Source of the DNA: Halocafeteria seosinensis
Lineage: Eukaryota; Sar; Bigyra; Bicosoecida
NCBI GenBank assembly: GCA_001687465.1
Contig: LVLI01000202.1
Span: forward strand, 1 to 64,000
DNA: 64,000 bases
Direction: 5' to 3'
The notes under the pieces are model-generated. The model ran no database searches, had not been told where the DNA came from, and worked only from the letters and a program-made list of their open reading frames with translations. A program made the position numbers and the translations under genes. Shown in pieces: positions 3,854-33,862 of the stretch. Numbering within the stretch: position 1 is the first letter of the stretch; each line of letters starts with the position of its first letter.

Positions 3854-4626
3854 CCAAACGGAGTACGTGGCGTCCGTTCAGCGATTGTGCTACCAAATAC
3901 GACACCCGTGGGAAGGCATTTCCGATGACGAGGGTACTCGAATGAAGTGTCTTCAGAAAGCGACAAACTATCCCCCTTTTGCCCACGTACACGAAGAAGA
4001 TTCCGGAGTCGGCGTCGTCTTTACAGCGCATTTACCGTAACGTGCCGAATGAGACTAGGTTAACAAGAAATAAACGACACAGAAAATAATACACAGAACT
4101 TCTATGGTAAGTCCGGCTCTGACAGTTGCAGGAAAATGTAGCTCCAAAGGAGTCCAAACCCTCACGTTCCAGACGGGGATGTGGGCTTGTAGGCGGCTCT
4201 GTTTTCTCCCCAGCAAGTCGAACTAATAAACGTGAACTGTTTGGCATTCAGTAGATTGATGTTAATAGTTAGTAAGTACGACCCGAGGCCGCTGGAATTC
4301 CGATTTTAGCGACCAGTTGCCGCAGCGTCACAGCACTTCTTTAGGAAGCAACCGGGCCAGGCTATCCGCCGGGAATTCTAGAGCGGAGGCAAAGGCACAA
4401 ATTTTGACCCCTGGAGCTCTGTGCACGACGAGTATTGGTGGTCGCATTATATATTGTTATGGTAGCGTACCAACCTGGGATGTCCCTAGTATGTGGCCAG
4501 GGAACAACCTATATCTCGATAACGAATGCGAATTTCGGAAAACCCTGTGAGCACAATAGAAAGTGCGTATTCTTTCACCTGGTACAACTGGTTCCATTTC
4601 CATATCTATACAGTGCTTGTACGCAG
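3854..4626. other. Intergenic, upstream of the GH28 gene
   Basis: No gene found on either strand. The open frame that precedes the GH28 start in frame (from 4435) lacks an ATG and does not look like part of the protein. Confidence 0.4.
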
Positions 4627-5982
4627 ATGGCAAAAATAAGGGCGAAAAAGATTTCGCCCTTGTTTCTGATATCGACAGTATTGGCATTATTGAGCATAGT
4701 GGATGCGATTTCGATTGAGGAGTTTGGCGCCAAACCATTTGTTTCAAGCGAAGAAGTTGCCAGCATAAACAGCAAAGCACTGCGCAAGGCATTTTTCTGG
4801 GCGAATGCCAGCTCCAACGACAGAACTGTGGAAATTCCGGCCAATAAGAACTTCGTCGTGTTCAATACAACTGTGCAGGATGTGACTAACGTATCGCTTG
4901 AAATCAGCGGGAATCTTACGATGGCAGCGAATATTACGTGGTGGCCATACAAGAAGCAGCGTCCAGAGTGGTTCTCGATGCTAGCAATTCTTGACTCATC
5001 CTTCATTGAGCTTCGCGGAAATGGCACCGTTGATGGACAGGGTTATGACTGGTGGTGGGCAAAGTTCTTAGTAGACCCGGTGCAAAGACCTTACATGTTT
5101 ACTATTTCTCGTTGCTCAGACGTTACTATACAAGGCTTCACAGCTCTTAATTCTCCAAAGTATCATTTCAAACTGTTGAATGTGTTGCGCGTATATGTCA
5201 ACAAAATTACAATTCTTGTTGACGTCTTCAAGCAAAAAGAAATGATGCAGACGCATGGCTATTGGAAAAAGAGCAATAATGCTATCGGGGGACTACCTGT
5301 GTTTCCACTCAATACTGACGGGTTCGATCCGCGAGGAAAGAACATGCTCTTTGAGAACCTCTTTGTGCAGAACTTCGATGACGTCGTTGCTGTGAAACCT
5401 TCTCACCAAGGTGACGCCTTCACGAACTGCACCCAAAATTTAACAATAAGGAACTCGACGGTGCGACTTGGAGTGGGAATGACCATCGGGTCTGTGCCAC
5501 CTCATCCTGGCACCAACTGTGTCCGGAACGTAACCTTCGAGAACATCATTTTTGACACTCCAATAAAAGCAATATATATCAAGACGAATCCGGGAACGAC
5601 TGGCGATGGAATAATTGATAACATATTGTATAGGAATGTGACGGCCACCAACAGTCTCTGGTATCCTATTTGGATAGGACCACAACAGCAACAACAGCCT
5701 GGATCTTCTGGTACCGGTTGTAGTTTCCTCTATCCGATTGTAAAACAATGCCCTACTCAACCTCGTGTGCCAATCACGAATATTTTCCTCAAGGATATGA
5801 ATTTCACGGGTGGACTAACATTACCGGGAGTGCTGCTTTGCAATGAGACGAATCCTTGTCAGAACTTCCAATTCGACAATGTGCAAAATAATGGAGAATT
5901 TCTCATTCAGAAGGACTATGTTTGTGAAAATATCGTCTCTAGCAACAGCTCAGGAAGCATGCCTATCCCTAGCTGTTTCTAG
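4627..5982 (+). CDS. Secreted GH28 polygalacturonase-like protein
   Basis: A 451-residue pectinase-family protein, single exon. ATG 4627 is chosen because it opens a classic signal peptide (basic start, hydrophobic core LFLISTVLALLSIV, likely cleavage after VDA, residue 27). The parallel beta-helix fold is indicated by GNGTVDGQG (131-139). GH28 active-site segments follow in order: NTDGFD (229-234), FDD (250-252), GVGMTIGS (282-289) and YIKT (317-320). The three catalytic aspartates are present. In the third segment the normal GHG histidine is replaced by valine. Many N-x-S/T sites and paired cysteines agree with secretion. The likely role is hydrolysis of galacturonan or a related polymer, outside the cell; the lost histidine makes the substrate and activity uncertain. 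Confidence 0.88.
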   Translation: MAKIRAKKISPLFLISTVLALLSIVDAISIEEFGAKPFVSSEEVASINSKALRKAFFWANASSNDRTVEIPANKNFVVFNTTVQDVTNVSLEISGNLTMAANITWWPYKKQRPEWFSMLAILDSSFIELRGNGTVDGQGYDWWWAKFLVDPVQRPYMFTISRCSDVTIQGFTALNSPKYHFKLLNVLRVYVNKITILVDVFKQKEMMQTHGYWKKSNNAIGGLPVFPLNTDGFDPRGKNMLFENLFVQNFDDVVAVKPSHQGDAFTNCTQNLTIRNSTVRLGVGMTIGSVPPHPGTNCVRNVTFENIIFDTPIKAIYIKTNPGTTGDGIIDNILYRNVTATNSLWYPIWIGPQQQQQPGSSGTGCSFLYPIVKQCPTQPRVPITNIFLKDMNFTGGLTLPGVLLCNETNPCQNFQFDNVQNNGEFLIQKDYVCENIVSSNSSGSMPIPSCF

Positions 5983-24917: not shown

Positions 24918-27900
24918 CTACTCCGAAGACACACTATTCGCAACTTTGGACAGAACCTCATACGTTTCTCCACTCAGCTTGCCTTCTCCGCTGTTATGAG
25001 AAGCAAGAAGATTGTTGACCTTCTGCACAACGAGATTCTGTTGTTTTGGTGGCAGTCTAGTTACAGAAGAAAAGATCCTAGCTACAGCAGAAGCTACATG
25101 AGGGTTCATCTTGTCCAAGCGCGCGATGCTCTCCCGAATGAACTCGTAACCGCTTCCATCATGGGCGTGGAAACGCGAAATATTTCCCCGAGCAAAACCA
25201 CCAATCAACGAGCGTACTTTGTTGGGGTTCTTCCAATCAAGGAAATCTGGATGCTCTGTTAGTCGCTTCACGTCTTCGAGCGAGCCGTACATTGCTTGAA
25301 TCGAGATCCACCTGACGAGACCACGACAATATTCAGATTTGCAAGCACTTCTCATAATAGTATCCCGTCGGCACTTACTTGTCCACAGCTAAACTTTCGT
25401 GGCAAAATCTGGAATGAAACAAATCAATGCTTTTTTGTCGTTCTTCATGTGTCGAGGGCACCGACATAAGAATGTTGAAAGCAGTTTGAGCTTCAGTCAT
25501 CTGAGGGAATAGCAGAACAGTCGAGTACCAGTCCTGTCTAATACACACGATTGTAAGTTCTCACCACTTACATTTTTGCACTGCTGGAGCATGTAGAAGG
25601 CAGACGTAACCGTGTTGACCTCAGCCTGAGAGACGTCCAAAGATGGCCCTTTCCCCATTGGTGTTTCGCAAAAAGGTGAGTTCATTATATTGAAAACTAC
25701 AGACCGTAAAGTTCTCTTTCCTTGTTCAGTCAAATCCAAAGAATACGGATACTGCCCAGTAAAATCTTCGTCGCCCAGCTGGGCACTGAGTGCTCGGAAA
25801 CAAGCCAACAAATCTTCTTGTAGTTCATGAGCCATATGGCGCCGCATAAGACTCTTTGCTTCTGCTAATGCAACAGGATCCGCTACTCCCTGTGGATTCT
25901 GGGTAGTGGCGTCTCCCACCAAAACAGAGAGCGGTGGAAGTCCAATGATTCGAGCCACAGTCGCCTTATCCGCTCGTTCGTCTTGAAGAAGTTGGCGAGC
26001 TGCCGTCAAAAACTTCTGACAAAACTCACTTAGTTGATCACAACTCTCTCCGTTTGCAAGCTTTTCGAATAGTTCGAGAACAACCTTCGTAGCCAACTTG
26101 TTGCCTGCTTCCCAACGATTGAATGGGTCCGAATCAAACGCCATAAGGAACAATGATTCCATAGTTTCTCGTTCACTTTGCGTTTCTGACTTATCAGAAA
26201 ATACCTTCTCTTCCCCTGCATTATCATTTTGCTGTAAGCGAATCGGAGCCGAAAACCCTCGTAGCAAAGAGGGAACCACAGGACATTTGTTCAATTCAGT
26301 GGCTGGGAGCAGGCGCTCACTCTCAACGCCCCGGTTTGACTTGGCTTTGTTTACGGCCTCACCGAGATTGGTGAACTCAAATGTCTGATGCCGCGTAGTC
26401 AGATGCAAGATAACGTATTGATCTCCCCAATCTTGTGAATTGTTACCGAGGCCCTGCGCGCCAGAGCTGGCTCCCGCAATGCCCTGTCCATACACTGGAT
26501 CCTTCGGATCTGACACCTGGTTTCCGTCTCGAGCTACCGGCTTGAGATCTTTGCCGTCTGGGCCTAACAGACCAAACCGAATTGGAATGTGCAACGGAGG
26601 CTTCTCTTCTTTATTCTCTTCATTCGGAGTAATAGGTACCCGTTGAGATAGATGAAGGGTATAAGTTCCCTTGCTTTCATTCCACTCTCCGCGCCAGTAT
26701 ACTTGCGGTGTGCCTGGGGTGCTGTACCAAAGGCGGAACTGCGCCATAGGCAGCTTCATCCGCTTTTGGGCTTCCTGTTCAATACTCTCTTGGCCTCCAG
26801 CCCACTCGTTTGCTTTCCCAAAGTTTGTTTTAAAATTGTTAAGCCACTCAGTAGAATCAACTATATTGGTACTCCAAGGTACTCGCTCCCCTGCGTGCTC
26901 CACCAAAGCATCCTCCAAAGCCGTTACCCAATCCTCGCAAGTAACTGCCGAGCCATCATGGCGATTAAAGTATAGCTCTGCTGCTTTTCTAAAAGCGGCA
27001 GGGCCCAACAGTGTAGCAGACATTCGGATAACTTCTGAGCCCTTTTCGTAAACGGTTGCAGTGTAAAGGTTGTTCATCCCAAGAACTTTATCAGGCCGAA
27101 CAGGATGAGCCATTGAACCTTGGTCTTCGGTAAACTGGGATGCACGCAAGCCGATAGTCTTTTCAATACGGCGCAGTGCACGCGAGAGACGGTCGGAGGA
27201 AAATTCTTCTTCGCGGAAAACTGTCAGCCCCTCTTTCAAGGTAAGCTGCAGCCAGTCCCGCAGAGTCACTCTATTGCCGGACCAGTTATGAAAGTACTCA
27301 TGGCCAACAACAGCCAAGATTGTATTGAAGTCGTCATCCGTTGCAACCATTTTGTCTGCCAAGATGAATTTTGTGTTGAAGATGTTCAAAGACTTGTTTT
27401 CCATGGCACCTGTAAAGGGTCATTTTGAAGCAAAACAATAGAGGCGTTGCTGACTTTTTAACTGTGTATGACCGCACACCTACCAGAATTGAAGTCATCA
27501 ATAGCCACGAGATTGAACACGTTTGAATCATATTCACGGTCATAAGCAATTTCGTCCCATTGAATAGCCATTTTCACACTCTTCATTGCATGATAACATT
27601 TGTCGATGTCTTTCTTGTCCGCAAAGACACGGATTTCAACATTGCGCCCACTCTTAGTTGTTAGGGTCTCACTGATATGACTTTTATCTGTCGCAACTAG
27701 AGCGAAAAGGTAAGATGGTTTGTAGAACGGGTCCTCCCAGCGAACCCAGTGTTTCCCATTTCCAACCTCTCCTTGTTCAACAAGATTCCCATTCGACAGC
27801 AGGACGGGGTACTTTTCTTTATCTGCCTCCATGTAGACCGTATACTTCGAAGTCACGTCGGGTCGATCAACGTGATAAACGAATTTCCGCATCCCTTCGG

Positions 27901-28622
27901 CTTCCATTTGAGTGCAAAACGTATTCCCACTCTTGTAGAGTCCTTCAAGTGTGGTGTTCTCCGCCGGATTCTCTTCCACGTTTATTTGCACCTGAGCCTC
28001 TTGAGTGGAATCTGAAAGGCCCAGGACATCTGCAGGAATCGTAAGTTTCTTTTGCTCCTCGTCTTTCTGCGGTAATAAAGAGAATGAAGCAATCAGTTGA
28101 GTCTGATCTAAAACAGTCAGGCGTACCTGAAATTGAGACTCTGAAAGCACGTTCCCATTGACCTGGATGGACTTCAACTCAAACAGCGAGGAGCCATCCA
28201 ACACAAGGGGATGAGGCGCGTCTTTCGAAAACGCTCTCTGAGGATTGCGTTTGACGGAAAGCGTGTTCTGCACACGTGTAACGGGGGTATCCAGCCATAC
28301 TTTCAGCTCCACCTGCAAGCTCACATATCGCTCAGGATATGGTTGTGATTAAAAGTCTTGGTCTGAGAGGAGATCTTACATCAGGCACCAAGTACGCCGG
28401 AGGCGTGTAATCACTTCGATCCATAGACATTTTATGAAATTCGTTCGGCGAGTTGTAGTGAAAATGACGAGTTCCAGGAGCAATGCAAGGGGTGCTAGTC
28501 CTCGAAAATGACAAACACGGGTAAGATATGCTTCGTAAGGGAAGAAACCGGGAGGTTGTGGGTTTGGATACAAGTCCACGCAGTGGCTTACAAGAGGCAG
28601 TGAATCCTCTTCGTATCAACAT
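24918..28622 (-). CDS. PepN-type M1 aminopeptidase
   Basis: Five exons (28380-28622, 27484-28312, 25572-27409, 25379-25500, 24918-25311), introns of 67-74 nt, encode 1,141 residues. This is a zinc metallopeptidase of family M1, closest to bacterial PepN rather than animal APN: PPAYLVPDVELKV opens the N-domain and DFNSGAMENKSLNIFNTKF and GHEYFHNWSGNRVTLRDW...LKEG form the active site (HEXXH-18-E). It releases N-terminal amino acids. The GAMEN motif is split by the second intron just after its first base. The C-terminal helical domain (WISIQAMYGSLEDVKRLTEH) is complete. The first ~65 residues are basic, serine-rich and lack acids, which suggests a mitochondrial or plastid presequence. A 300-bp divergent promoter region separates it from the next gene. 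Confidence 0.94.
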
Positions 28623-28921
28623 GGAAGGAGAAGAACCAATCAGCTACCCTACAGGTAACAATTACTTTTGACGTCTGTTACACAAGGGACTAATCACAAC
28701 AGGAAGGCTTCTTCATCACTGTTCGAGTCGAAGCCGCAAGGGTTAAGCGAGCAATCTTTTCTTGACCTCATAACTTCAACTTGAAGACAGCTTGAAAGGT
28801 GTTCCTTCTCCTTTTCATTCATCGTATTAACTAGGTGTCGCCCGTGGAATTGTGGAGATGAGGATGGTCGTATAAGGCGAGGAATACGTTGGTATTGCAG
28901 CACTGGCTTGTATCGTAGCGT

Positions 28922-31900
28922 ATGGAAGCGGTACGGCCTGAAAGTCGAAGTAGAAGTCAAGAGACTCCTACGACTTGCGGCAAGGTTGCTACGGTTTCTC
29001 ATAGCGTTAAACACGACACTACGCGTTCCAATGAAGGAAATACGACAATCGAACACGGTCGTCCGCCTCCCACACCTCCTGTGTATATCCATGATGGATA
29101 CTTTGGCAACGATACTGAGCTAAAGGAATCGTTCTCCTCCGGCTCGAACAAAATGAACGGCAACCAGACCTCTTTGAATGGCTCCAAAACGGCAACTGCA
29201 GGCGCCTCAAGCACAGCCAAGCCCACAAATGATGGAGAAATCCGGACGAAGCGGTCATCGGCTTACAGGAAAAATGATGTGAATTCACTAACAGGGAGTA
29301 CGGACCAACTGTCACTTGACAACCAACCGCGTCAGTCTTCGCGCGAGAGCACGGGAAACTCTTCAAATACTCAGCATAGTCCCCTATTTCATAGCCGTCA
29401 AGGTCGCTCACGAAGTGGCGCTTTTAGCGAAGCTTCTGATGACGGGAGGAGAGTCCGTTCAGCTATACAGCAAGGGAAGGTCACCGAGGCGTTGGGGATC
29501 CTGCAGAGCAATCCAGTGATACTTAGCTTACCAGATATGAATCCTCTTCACGATATACTACCCTTGATATTACACTCCTTGGCGGAAAGTTATGATAGTT
29601 ATGGAATCCAGGGAAATGAAGGCGTTTACTTTGATTTCTATCGCTACTTGCACAAGTGTATGACACGAGAAGAGAAGGCATCTACTCAGACGCTGGCAAC
29701 GATGTTCTATGCGGCCTGCAAGTTTAACCAAACCGATTTTGCTGACTGGATCCTCGTCGAAATATCTTCCAAGACTCAATTGAGTATCGACCGTCTGGCA
29801 GTGGATAGGTCGTACCGGTATAATCGTCTTCGGCACTGTGGATTGCACTATGTGGCTCGCAACGGAAACGTTAGGCTTCTCCAACACCTTAGCAAGTACT
29901 GCTCTGCGTCGCCGTTGCTGTTGGAATCTTCGTTATTAATGCAGTTTCCTCAGGGTCAAGAAGGAATGGAGCTCTCGTCGCTGTATATTGCTGCATCTCA
30001 GCGTCACAAGGGATTTGTCAGACACGCCATAGAAAGCCANCGCCACAAGTTCGACGATGAAGGGATGACTGCAGAATCTACAACGGCAGTGCAGAACTCA
30101 TCTTCGACAGGCTCCTCTGATAATAGGCTACGAGTTCCCGCCGGCCTGCGGCAGCTGGTGATGTGCTTAATGATACATGGGCTTGTTGCCTTAGATGACG
30201 TACCCACCGCTGAGTGGATTCGAAGGGAATGCATGTCTCTTGATCCCATTGTTTTGACTCTCCCTATGGCTACTTCGGCGGATGGACAGGGAAACTTGCG
30301 TTTCCCGCCTTCGATGGATAGGTCTACTGATGGACAAGCAGCAGCGCCTTTGTCACTACCGAAGGAAAAGAACGGGGAAAAGAGCCCCGAAAACTCTGAG
30401 TCTCAACAAAAACTCTCAGACGATAGGAAGTATATCCTGGGACGTAAGAGTCAGAACGTCCCGAGTGCCCAAAGCACGAACGAGGCAACGAACTGTTTGG
30501 CGCTACATTTGTGTTTATACCGTCTTCCCCCTTCCCCGCACCAAGCGAAGAGTGTTCCTTCGGCAGCCACTGCAGCTGGTATTTCTCTTAACCCCTCTGG
30601 CGGCCCTGAAGATGTGGTTCCTCGGCGGAGTGCGGTTGAACGCCTAAGAGAATATACCGCAGAATTTCGGCAGGAATTCCGTGGAGAAAAATCTCAGCAA
30701 AAAAGAAACGACCAGCAGCAGGAGAGTGACAATGCTGCCGTAAACTCTATCTTGCATCAACATATATACAATTATAGTGATCAAGGTCGTCCTGCTGCAC
30801 CTCACCCTGCGTTAAACATGTTTGGTTGGCTGCTGAACCATTTCCCCTGGTTGGCCAGCCGGCCGTTCTGTATTATGACTGGAGAAGCAAGCCAAAAGCG
30901 TTTAGAGTGGAGGAATGCGTTCCACAGTGCGTGCAGTGTAGGCTGTCGTTCTGCCGCGGAACAACTCCTTGATGTTGATCCTGAACTGTTACACACATAT
31001 TCGTACAGTGTACAGTTAGGAACTTGCTCGAAACTTCAAGATCCCTCTACGTGCTCTGATGATGTGATCGAGTTCCACCCACTGTTTATCACTATTGGAC
31101 ACTGCAGACTAACTGGGCAGTTCGACTTCCTCAGATGGTTGTTAAGTCACTATGAAGAGCAAACGATCGACCGCGAAGTTTACGAAGCATGTCAGGGCCT
31201 GCATGTAATGGTTCCTGATTTTGTTAAGGATGTATGTAAGAATACCGGACTAAGCTTGAGAAGGATGATGGGTATGCCTTCGCGATCCAAAGTATCCAGT
31301 GGTCGGTGGTCTTCCCAAAATACCAGTCGTTTAAGCAGTCAGAGTCGCACCGAGAGTATGGAAGGTGGGTCCAATATCAAAGGTACATCGTTTAACAGTA
31401 ATCGCTCCAGAAGTGAGACGGATAGCACATCTGAGACACCGATTGCATCACCGCAGCAGTATGGAGCTTCACGAGGCATTTCATTGGATAACAATTTTCA
31501 CTTAGATTCTTTTGGTGCCGACGATGCATCTGATGCGTTTCCGGATGACAGTTCCCATACATCGGATCATCAAACAAGACCTGCAAAAAACAAGAAGAAT
31601 ACGTCTGAGAAAGGAAAGAGAAGAGGTAACGAGAAGAATAGAAAGAAAGAAAGGGGGCGGAGAAGGAAAACCAAAGGTGCGCGTGATACGGACGTGGACG
31701 AGAGTGACACACCGTCTCACCAACGGTCTCGAGGGGATACCTCACAGAGCGCTGACGCTCTGCTGATGAGCCATCAGGATGACGAGACAGATGTAGACAG
31801 GTCCAGGTGTCTACTGAAGCACAGTGGCGGAAGCAATGTAAATGATATGAGCCGGATTCCAAGCTATGAATCAAACATATCTGAAGCGGAAGCCCAGCAT

Positions 31901-33802
31901 ATGCGCGCATTTGCCCTTCATGAGGACACAGCCAGGTTAGACAAGCGTGGCCCGAGTGCTCTCAGCACAATTCACTCGGTTTCTCCCTCCTTCGGAGCTC
32001 AAGACTCTCCTGTTGGTGTTGAAGATGATCCCAAGAATTCCGCACCAGATTGTACCAATGTATCTTCTACATCATTTTCGCTGGATAATGAGCAACGTGA
32101 GAAAGAGGAATATAGCACTGCTGCGATGAACTCAGACGCTCCCTTTGCCGCATCAGTTCAACCTGACATTCCTTCCACTGCATCCCTAACGCGGTCGTCA
32201 CAGAAGTCAGTAGACATTCCAGGTGCCCAGACCTGCGCCTCAGCTTCCACAAAGTCTCATACTGAGGAAACTCAAAGGAGTGCTAGCGTCCGTGTACTAG
32301 AGGAGGATAATCATAGCGAATGCTCCTCAGAGGAGGGAGAAGATATACGGATTAGGAACATATCTTTCAATGACGCGGACATCCTCTACCTGGGCTCAGG
32401 TGGTCTGGAGATTTTCCGCGGGTGCTGTGGGAGGCGGGCAGCAGCTATAAAGCGAGTGCGACGGCGCCTGTTCCCTAATGCATTGCGAGAAAAGATTGTC
32501 AATATTATGTTGACACTGTCAGAGGACTCCGATGAAGGCAGTGGGCGGTACATTTTGAGGTATTTCGATGATACAACGGATAAAAAGTATTGGTATTTGG
32601 CGACCGAACTATGCGAAAATAGCCTCGACAGAGCAATCGAGCAAGGGTGTGATCAGACTCGTGCTCACTTTACCACACGCTTTCCGAACAATGAATCGTC
32701 CACGTGGGTAACATTGCGTTCATTGCAGAGTATGCCTGTTGACTTTTGTAGGCAGCTCTTAAAAGCAGCGGATCACATACACAGTAAGGGGTTTGTTCAC
32801 GGCTTCATTAGCCCGAAGAGTGTTTTGTTGAAGAAAGGTACTGTTAAGCTTAGCGGCTTTGGAACATCTCTCTTCTTTAAACACGAGAAATTACCGGACA
32901 ACGTTAACCAAGAGTGGCTGGCACCAGAGGTTATGGGAAGTAAGACCAGGAGCGGACATACGGAGTGGAGTCAAGCGGTTGATTCGTTTTCTGTAGGATG
33001 CATAATTTTTTACATACTTTCAGGGGGAAAGCATCCTTTCGGAACTCCCAATGAAAGATTATACAACATGCTACAGGTGGGAAAGCCACCATACTCTAAT
33101 CTCCGGAAATCCTGGTGGGAGAGCTTGCCCGAGTTCTCTACGGAGGCTGCTTCTTATGCAAGCGTATCCTACGCTCCAGCATCCACAGCATGTAGAGAAA
33201 TTCCGTGGCAATACTACTACGGGGGGATCCATTTGGTCCGCGAACTAATACAGCAAAATCCGAAGAACAGACTCTCAGTTCATGCGGCTTTATCTCACCC
33301 AATGTTCTGGACAACTCGTCAGCAGATTGAAACAATTGCTGCTTTCAGTGACGTCGCTAAACAGTTATACGGAATGCTTCCTATTTGGGAGAGCTCAAAA
33401 GCCATCGAGAGACTAGAAAAAGCCTTTCGCCATTTCGAGGGAAGCTCTGAAGAAAAGCTAAATTGGGTCAATAAGCTGCGCGTAGATGATGAGCGCGCGC
33501 ACCGACAATGGGAAGTAATTTCCAGTTCTTCGTCAGAGTGGAAGTCTCCGCAAGAGTACTTCAAAATGTATACAGCCAAAGAAAGGCAACTTCACGCTGT
33601 GGGCCTGTGTCGAGCTATCCGAAACATAGCTTACGCTCATACTATCGAATACGTTTCTGCCGGATTGTTCGCATCCGTGGAGCAAGTCCATACATACTTC
33701 CTTGGAAATTTTCCCTGGCTAATGGTGGAAATCTACGATATAGTTACAAGTGGCATAGACCCTCAACTGTCACAAGAACTACGGGGACTTTTGCCGACTT
33801 AA
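28922..33802 (+). CDS. Ankyrin-like / pseudokinase / KEN endoribonuclease protein (RNase L-like architecture)
   Basis: One intronless frame of 1,626 residues. Residues 1-150 are disordered. Helical ankyrin-like units occur near 310 (LHYVARNGNVRLLQHLSKY), 360, 667 (FHSACSVGCRSAAEQLL) and 725. A basic/serine linker (about 790-1,130) follows. A kinase-fold domain (about 1,150-1,460) keeps the VAIK lysine (AAIKRV, K1177) but has HGF for HRD (1293) and GFG for DFG (1312), so it is predicted catalytically dead. It is followed directly by a KEN domain: SHPMFW at about 1,458 and LCRAIRN (1562-1568), the nuclease motif of IRE1 and RNase L. The catalytic histidine normally four residues after the Asn is here five after it (H1573). 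There is no signal peptide or membrane span, unlike IRE1. Role inferred: a sensor-controlled RNase. Residue 373 is undefined because base 30,040 is N. Confidence 0.85.
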   Translation: MEAVRPESRSRSQETPTTCGKVATVSHSVKHDTTRSNEGNTTIEHGRPPPTPPVYIHDGYFGNDTELKESFSSGSNKMNGNQTSLNGSKTATAGASSTAKPTNDGEIRTKRSSAYRKNDVNSLTGSTDQLSLDNQPRQSSRESTGNSSNTQHSPLFHSRQGRSRSGAFSEASDDGRRVRSAIQQGKVTEALGILQSNPVILSLPDMNPLHDILPLILHSLAESYDSYGIQGNEGVYFDFYRYLHKCMTREEKASTQTLATMFYAACKFNQTDFADWILVEISSKTQLSIDRLAVDRSYRYNRLRHCGLHYVARNGNVRLLQHLSKYCSASPLLLESSLLMQFPQGQEGMELSSLYIAASQRHKGFVRHAIESXRHKFDDEGMTAESTTAVQNSSSTGSSDNRLRVPAGLRQLVMCLMIHGLVALDDVPTAEWIRRECMSLDPIVLTLPMATSADGQGNLRFPPSMDRSTDGQAAAPLSLPKEKNGEKSPENSESQQKLSDDRKYILGRKSQNVPSAQSTNEATNCLALHLCLYRLPPSPHQAKSVPSAATAAGISLNPSGGPEDVVPRRSAVERLREYTAEFRQEFRGEKSQQKRNDQQQESDNAAVNSILHQHIYNYSDQGRPAAPHPALNMFGWLLNHFPWLASRPFCIMTGEASQKRLEWRNAFHSACSVGCRSAAEQLLDVDPELLHTYSYSVQLGTCSKLQDPSTCSDDVIEFHPLFITIGHCRLTGQFDFLRWLLSHYEEQTIDREVYEACQGLHVMVPDFVKDVCKNTGLSLRRMMGMPSRSKVSSGRWSSQNTSRLSSQSRTESMEGGSNIKGTSFNSNRSRSETDSTSETPIASPQQYGASRGISLDNNFHLDSFGADDASDAFPDDSSHTSDHQTRPAKNKKNTSEKGKRRGNEKNRKKERGRRRKTKGARDTDVDESDTPSHQRSRGDTSQSADALLMSHQDDETDVDRSRCLLKHSGGSNVNDMSRIPSYESNISEAEAQHMRAFALHEDTARLDKRGPSALSTIHSVSPSFGAQDSPVGVEDDPKNSAPDCTNVSSTSFSLDNEQREKEEYSTAAMNSDAPFAASVQPDIPSTASLTRSSQKSVDIPGAQTCASASTKSHTEETQRSASVRVLEEDNHSECSSEEGEDIRIRNISFNDADILYLGSGGLEIFRGCCGRRAAAIKRVRRRLFPNALREKIVNIMLTLSEDSDEGSGRYILRYFDDTTDKKYWYLATELCENSLDRAIEQGCDQTRAHFTTRFPNNESSTWVTLRSLQSMPVDFCRQLLKAADHIHSKGFVHGFISPKSVLLKKGTVKLSGFGTSLFFKHEKLPDNVNQEWLAPEVMGSKTRSGHTEWSQAVDSFSVGCIIFYILSGGKHPFGTPNERLYNMLQVGKPPYSNLRKSWWESLPEFSTEAASYASVSYAPASTACREIPWQYYYGGIHLVRELIQQNPKNRLSVHAALSHPMFWTTRQQIETIAAFSDVAKQLYGMLPIWESSKAIERLEKAFRHFEGSSEEKLNWVNKLRVDDERAHRQWEVISSSSSEWKSPQEYFKMYTAKERQLHAVGLCRAIRNIAYAHTIEYVSAGLFASVEQVHTYFLGNFPWLMVEIYDIVTSGIDPQLSQELRGLLPT

Positions 33803-33862
33803 GTACACCAAAATAAACGTACCCAAGTATCCGCAGCCCTACCTCAAGTTTACGATTCCCAC

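Follow-up and report, generated by a model that had tools for sequence, protein, structure and literature searches.

RNase L is the best known pseudokinase-linked RNase, and its ankyrin repeats, pseudokinase and KEN nuclease domain follow one another in this order with no membrane anchor. IRE1 has a lumenal part and a membrane span, and its KEN domain stands directly after the kinase. The catalytic histidine has been identified as H1061 in yeast Ire1 and H672 in RNase L (PMC8104961), and RNase L binds ATP with two cations even though its kinase is inactive (PMC4718504). The wider HEPN group has the active-site motif R-x4-6-H, in which the histidine sits exposed at a helix terminus, a place that is often distorted (PMC3710099). 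The KEN row in Table 1 of the same survey lists fusions to kinases, some of them with ankyrin repeats or CCCH fingers, together with R-x4-6-H, so a layout of this kind has been noted before; that row names no protein like the one described here, and a series running from live to dead kinases with R-x5-H is absent there (PMC3710099). A literature search, with most subscription journals outside its coverage, gave no paper on such a protein among the matches listed. The protein described here, P0001, appears to share the layout of RNase L and would represent a second lineage with it. On balance, we read it as probably a soluble ligand-gated endoribonuclease, RNase L-like in its working, on its own branch of the IRE1-type kinase-KEN proteins.

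P0001 is encoded at positions 28922-33802 on the plus strand of the window, the whole stretch of 64,000 nucleotides that was analysed. It is a single frame of 1,626 codons from the ATG at 28922 to a TAA at 33802, with an in-frame stop at 28916, 5' of the ATG, and an AATAAA at 33812, just 3' of the TAA. A stop-free run of 1,626 codons has an ln P of about -65, far beyond chance length, and the frame described in the earlier note is thereby borne out. The motifs listed in that note, the VAIK lysine (in β3, here AAIK), HGF for HRD, GFG for DFG, LCRAIRN and H1573, are likewise all present. Of the three Pfam families at issue, Pkinase was matched clearly (E 1.4e-21), whereas Ank_2 on the whole protein (E 0.001) and Ribonuc_2-5A (E 0.014) fell below the curated cut-offs. 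The RNase L order of ankyrin-like region, dead kinase and KEN domain proposed earlier is supported in P0001, with Pfam scores for its first and last parts that lie below cut-off. The features of the locus are as follows.

28922..29401, plus strand: Ser/Thr-rich, weakly conserved N-terminal segment (residues 1-160)
29447..30046, plus strand: ankyrin-like block 1 (residues 176-375; helix pairs by eye at 176-197, 259-280, 304-327 and 350-372)
30040, plus strand: ambiguous base N in a codon caN, His or Gln, which leaves residue 373 undefined
30149..30229, plus strand: additional candidate ankyrin-like helix pair (residues 410-436, by eye)
30794..31276, plus strand: ankyrin-like block 2 (residues 625-785; candidate pairs 662-686 and 716-744; 54% identity to relatives)
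31277..32326, plus strand: long linker (residues 786-1135; 16-22% identity to relatives)
31586..31675, plus strand: basic cluster in the linker (residues 889-918; 17 of 30 are Lys or Arg)
32351..33310, plus strand: IRE1-type pseudokinase (residues 1144-1463, last letters HPMFW; Pkinase match as above)
32450..32452, plus strand: retained β3 lysine K1177 of AAIK, as a sequence motif
32798..32824, plus strand: HGFISPKSV replacing HRDLKPxNI (residues 1293-1301; catalytic Asp and Asn gone)
32855..32863, plus strand: GFG replacing DFG (residues 1312-1314)
33311..33799, plus strand: very probable divergent KEN domain (residues 1464-1626; core 1536-1626)
33611..33640, plus strand: RAIRNIAYAH (residues 1564-1573; R1567-N1568 and H1573, giving R-x5-H)
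33710..33721, plus strand: FPWL (residues 1597-1600; Tyr 8 after the F, as in 7/7 IRE1/RNase L references)

When about 5.8 billion proteins were searched, P0001 matched three others, P0002-P0004, at E < 1e-249, and P0005, an IRE1-type protein of Ustilago, at E 4e-06. The three close relatives are unnamed proteins from the sources ENA and 'lgn', taken as metagenome assemblies. As each of the large protein searches scored only the roughly 8,000 candidates sharing most words, the family size is a lower bound. P0001 is 38-40% identical to P0002-P0004 over the alignment and 45-46% in the best local alignment, which spans 39-41% of the query. Outside the linker and the N-terminal segment 1-160, the alignment extends along all of P0001; that segment has 46 Ser and Thr in 160 and is 14-32% identical to the relatives over few common columns. 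The order ankyrin-like region, linker, kinase and KEN recurs in all four full members (P0001-P0004), indicating a real family. A search with the family alignment listed 81 proteins, among which P0007-P0083, judged by their low scores and the domains listed for them, are taken to be general kinases. The same search gave a remote relative, P0006 (E 2e-39), which shares the front part, has a degenerate kinase (HGCVHPSSV), and has no Pfam match whatsoever and no detected KEN; it is either a second dead-kinase member or a cut gene. Since its C-terminus may be cut, P0006 was left out of the counts over four members and of the tree. No relative was found in viral contigs or prokaryote genomes in a scan with two short peptide patterns. 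Its own genome gave 12 matches and no second copy of P0001: apart from P0001 itself, the matches are confined to kinase residues, and two of these 11 lie within IRE1.

Residues 405-455, around the additional candidate helix pair, are 53-55% identical to the relatives, and the part of P0002 that matches block 2 gives Ank_5 at E 0.00013, below cut-off. The model of the N-terminal region, made for a P0004 fragment with six alignment rows, has a mean pLDDT of 54.1 and is fair only at about residues 20-220 and 490-555. Among the 595 Foldseek matches of this model, none reached E 0.001; RNase L is absent among the 50 matches listed, an absence that is not evidence against RNase L. There is no convincing membrane span in P0001: the highest 19-residue Kyte-Doolittle mean is 1.54 and lies at a candidate ankyrin-like helix, and the controls reach 2.62 in an IRE1 orthologue and just 1.59 in the genome's own IRE1, which makes the hydropathy test a soft one. 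With that test, the earlier view of P0001 as a protein that lacks a membrane anchor is supported to the extent that it is probably soluble. The most basic 30-residue stretch of each of P0002-P0004, Arg-rich, also falls in the linker, and the cluster could be a nuclear or RNA tether. Ankyrin repeats are abundant in the genome, where Ank_2 is matched at least 157 times; many of these matches lie in short frames, and some contain internal stops.

The solved structures nearest to the P0001 kinase are those of IRE1 (E 8.6e-22), and the best kinase of another kind is CDK16 (E 1.5e-08). This match, together with the tree described below, places the kinase in the IRE1 clade, as the earlier suggestion of an IRE1 relative would have it. 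The kinase retains the β3 Lys and a probable partner Glu, E1190, and is also without the G-T-P-G-W activation segment. In RNase L, the corresponding motifs read HQD and DFD, whereas P0001 has HGF and GFG, with the HRD-Asp, the Asn and the DFG-Asp all lost; judged by motif, the P0001 kinase therefore appears more thoroughly dead than that of RNase L. Of the active-kinase triad (Lys, HRD-Asp and DFG-Asp), P0001 keeps only the Lys, whereas P0002-P0004 keep all three and have HRD, its Asn and DFG intact. A dead kinase is thus not a family-wide trait, and the earlier claim stands for P0001 itself and does not extend to the family in general.

The evidence for the KEN domain comes from several scores that converge on the same region. 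The last 176 residues of P0001 match Ribonuc_2-5A at E 0.0011 with 19.6 bits, compared with a cut-off of 23.3 and with 109.8 bits for the genome's own IRE1. When C-terminal pieces of P0001, P0004 and P0002 were scanned, Pfam KEN was matched in two of the three (P0004 at E 0.039, P0002 not at all). A KEN profile made from seven IRE1 and RNase L sequences gave E values, for a search space of 1, of 1.3e-05 for P0001, 6e-04 for P0004, 0.006 for P0003 and 0.01 for P0002, where the RN stretch scores below zero and the best-scoring stretch is elsewhere. Comparison by hhalign with five IRE1 KEN domains gave E 4.6e-07 with the HPxFW start included; minus this anchor the score was 22.3, beaten by one of 200 column shuffles (24.6), and against RNase L alone the score was 16.4. 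The prediction of the kinase-KEN structure, with four rows, has a mean pLDDT of 36.9, a value too low for the model, or an overlay of H1573 on it, to be of use. A motif pattern was drawn from the references ([RK]x[IMLF]RN, 27-34 residues, FPxL, 4 residues, Y), which as first written fits 7/7 references and 3/4 family members; one position was widened by Val after P0004 had been inspected, giving 4/4. The widened pattern is absent from 78 other proteins, which total 100,216 aa, and from all shuffled versions of P0001 and of P0002, 1,000,000 for each. The tail of P0001 also opens with the HPxFW-SD junction of IRE1. We consider it very probable that the C-terminal region is a divergent KEN domain, a membership that rests on scores that converge, the Pfam ones from below the threshold. 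An ordinary ankyrin-kinase whose tail is KEN-like by chance would account for the sub-threshold Pfam score, and the ankyrin-rich genome (at least 157 Ank_2 matches) makes such a protein easier to imagine. This explanation is very improbable, as IRE1 is the nearest solved kinase by 13 orders of magnitude in E value over the next kind, the tail starts with the IRE1 junction, and the pattern recurs in 0/78 proteins and 0/2 million shuffles.

The position of the histidine within the putative active site differs by one from that in the described enzymes. In all seven IRE1/RNase L sequences the histidine stands four residues past the Asn of the RN motif (R-x4-H). In the family it stands five residues past this Asn, is invariant in 4/4 members, and has Ala or Ser at N+4. 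All four members have RN followed by the histidine of R-x5-H, that is, a polar residue after the Arg, which fits the KEN active-site motif R-x4-6-H and makes the spacing compatible with an active site. The earlier description of a histidine one position off is correct as an offset from the references, but the residue is not displaced in the sense of being out of place, as it is invariant in the family and inside the HEPN range. The distance from this Asn to FP is 29 in P0001, 28 in RNase L and 31-35 in the IRE1 sequences, and the simplest reading is that the family has one extra residue between RN and the histidine. One global multiple alignment shifts the register and sets H1558 opposite the IRE1 histidine. 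The RAIRN register is preferred because both hhalign and HMMER print it, the Pfam range is consistent with it, and it keeps the N-to-FP distance at 29 and the FP-to-Y distance at 8.

The Asp at N-7 of the RN motif, present in 7/7 references, matters in RNase L, and is replaced by Gly in 4/4 family members. This replacement and the shift of the histidine by one are what would be seen if the C-terminal domain were a nuclease-dead KEN relic, kept as a dimerization or RNA-binding module in a pseudoenzyme scaffold; the weak KEN scores and the drifted first half of the KEN region fit such a relic as well, and some HEPN domains that lack the motif have been proposed as RNA binders (PMC3710099). We regard a relic as rather unlikely, since the Arg, the Asn and the histidine six residues after the Arg are invariant in all four members, the KEN core is among the better-kept parts of the protein while the kinase decays, and R-x5-H is within the published HEPN range (PMC3710099).

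Identity between P0001 and its three relatives is 53-74% in the N-terminal blocks, 45-47% in the kinase N-lobe, 30-32% in the kinase C-lobe and 53-55% in the KEN core (1536-1626). Among themselves the relatives are 65-76% identical in the kinase C-lobe and 66-84% in the KEN core, and in the first half of the KEN domain (1464-1535) they are 56-65% identical, compared with 36-38% between P0001 and the relatives. Identity has thus fallen most in the C-lobe of the kinase and clearly also over residues 1464-1535, with only a mild drop in the N-terminal blocks and the KEN core. This pattern suggests that the sensor and the nuclease core, and not the kinase, stayed under selection after the kinase had been dispensed with. 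What agrees least with this reading is that the part of the KEN domain next to the kinase has drifted as well.

The kinase+KEN tree was built from ten rows of IRE1, RNase L and the family and two outgroup rows. The ten KEN-kinase rows stand apart from the outgroup (95/98) and the family is recovered at 100/100. In a tree from the kinase alone, for which four of seven intended outgroup kinases were dropped for want of the cutting motif, the family is recovered at 96/96, and no order is settled among IRE1, RNase L and the family. Long branches are flagged in both trees, with P0001 among them. A grouping of P0001 alone with RNase L was tried and rejected (p-AU 0.0015). Trees that join the whole family to RNase L (p-AU 0.148), to all IRE1 (0.258) or to the genome's own IRE1 (0.436) were not rejected. 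In the free tree, with its long branches and few rows, RNase L falls beside human IRE1 (support 82/77).

These results bear on whether P0001 is a true RNase L orthologue, or descends together with RNase L from an ancient ankyrin-kinase-KEN protein, perhaps with 2-5A as its gating ligand. The two proteins are alike in several respects: besides the apparent domain order and the probable lack of a membrane anchor, both keep the β3 Lys, the RN motif and the FP-x-L-x4-Y spacing, and FP follows the histidine at a distance of 24 in P0001 (29 - 5) and in RNase L (28 - 4) alike. A clade of the family and RNase L is among the groupings above that the tree test did not reject. P0001 differs from RNase L in its R-x5-H in place of R-x4-H and in a linker of about 350 residues. 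Against such kinship, its ankyrin-like repeats are weak and interrupted and it has no GKT/GKS motif; no OAS1_C match was found in the genome in a search that had no positive control. With P0001 alone beside RNase L rejected and RNase L next to human IRE1 in the free tree, we judge this kinship distinctly improbable, and a specific link with RNase L or 2-5A is left unsupported. The likeness to IRE1 consists of the IRE1-type kinase, the HPxFW junction and the very probable KEN directly after it, and the difference from IRE1 lies in the divergence of this KEN and in the ankyrin-like front with no clear span, by the soft hydropathy test, in place of a lumenal part and a membrane span. P0001 is best described as RNase L-like by anatomy, and on its sequence we assign it to the kinase-KEN kind rather than present it as a shown member of RNase L. 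Since the grouping of P0001 alone with RNase L is rejected and its nearest kin in the tree have live-kinase motifs, parsimony indicates that the kinase was lost independently of RNase L, and kinase decay in the P0001 lineage was apparently separate from the same change in animals. P0006, degenerate too and outside the tree, could share the kinase loss of P0001.

The genome assembly that holds P0001 comprises 30.6 Mb in 605 contigs with eukaryotic genes. It also encodes, in a gene apart from that of P0001, an IRE1-like protein of 1,389 aa, which is the sole Pfam KEN match in the genome at E 0.001.

2228-6397 of L002 on contig C345, minus strand: IRE1-like protein in one open frame

This protein has an HRD kinase with SDMG for DFG, a long insert, a KEN domain with R-x4-H and, as read from its sequence, a C-terminal CCCH zinc finger; its orthologue P0084, 55% identical and of the same plan, has a Pfam CCCH match. 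The first ~520 residues, which have no family match, are probably lumenal, and ~531-549 are a probable membrane span. With an IRE1 of kinase and KEN encoded elsewhere in the genome, P0001 would be an additional KEN effector with a job of its own and no replacement for IRE1.

In the mechanism that we propose for P0001 as a ligand-gated endoribonuclease, the ankyrin-like module would sense a cytosolic signal, either a protein or a small molecule. Self-association driven by this signal would set two kinase-KEN units back to back, by analogy with IRE1 and RNase L. The kinase would act as a dimer scaffold, which in the live-motif relatives may also phosphorylate and bind nucleotide, and which in P0001, from which the HRD-Asp, its Asn and the DFG-Asp are absent, would be purely structural. 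Conservation and the HEPN motif suggest that the paired KEN domains would cut RNA without metal via R1567, N1568 and H1573. As a guess, the basic cluster of the linker may direct P0001 to the nucleus, to ribosomes or to RNA. If this probably non-animal eukaryote has a KEN RNase in its cytosol in addition to IRE1, that would point to regulated RNA decay outside animals, perhaps in a stress or antiviral response. Members with live and dead kinases side by side allow the contribution of the kinase to KEN activation to be asked directly, the family also bears on how a kinase is discarded while the nuclease core stays, and the KEN active site itself, with R-x5-H, varies in a way that can be tested. 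One could go further and see in ankyrin-kinase-KEN an ancient eukaryotic switch for cytosolic RNA decay that predates interferon and 2-5A, with RNase L and the P0001 family as surviving branches and the kinase dead independently in both, here after the live stage seen in P0002-P0004; this broader history we hold to be unlikely.

Elsewhere in the window, a GH28 polygalacturonase-like gene lies at 4435-5982 on the plus strand (E 5.6e-32). This gene, together with a search for light-harvesting proteins that gave no match, hints at a heterotroph. A family M1 aminopeptidase is split over two frames at 25497-28324 on the minus strand, and an apparent 74-base GT-AG intron at 27410-27483 (by eye), just before GAMEN, joins these frames, which suggests that genes in this genome can contain introns.
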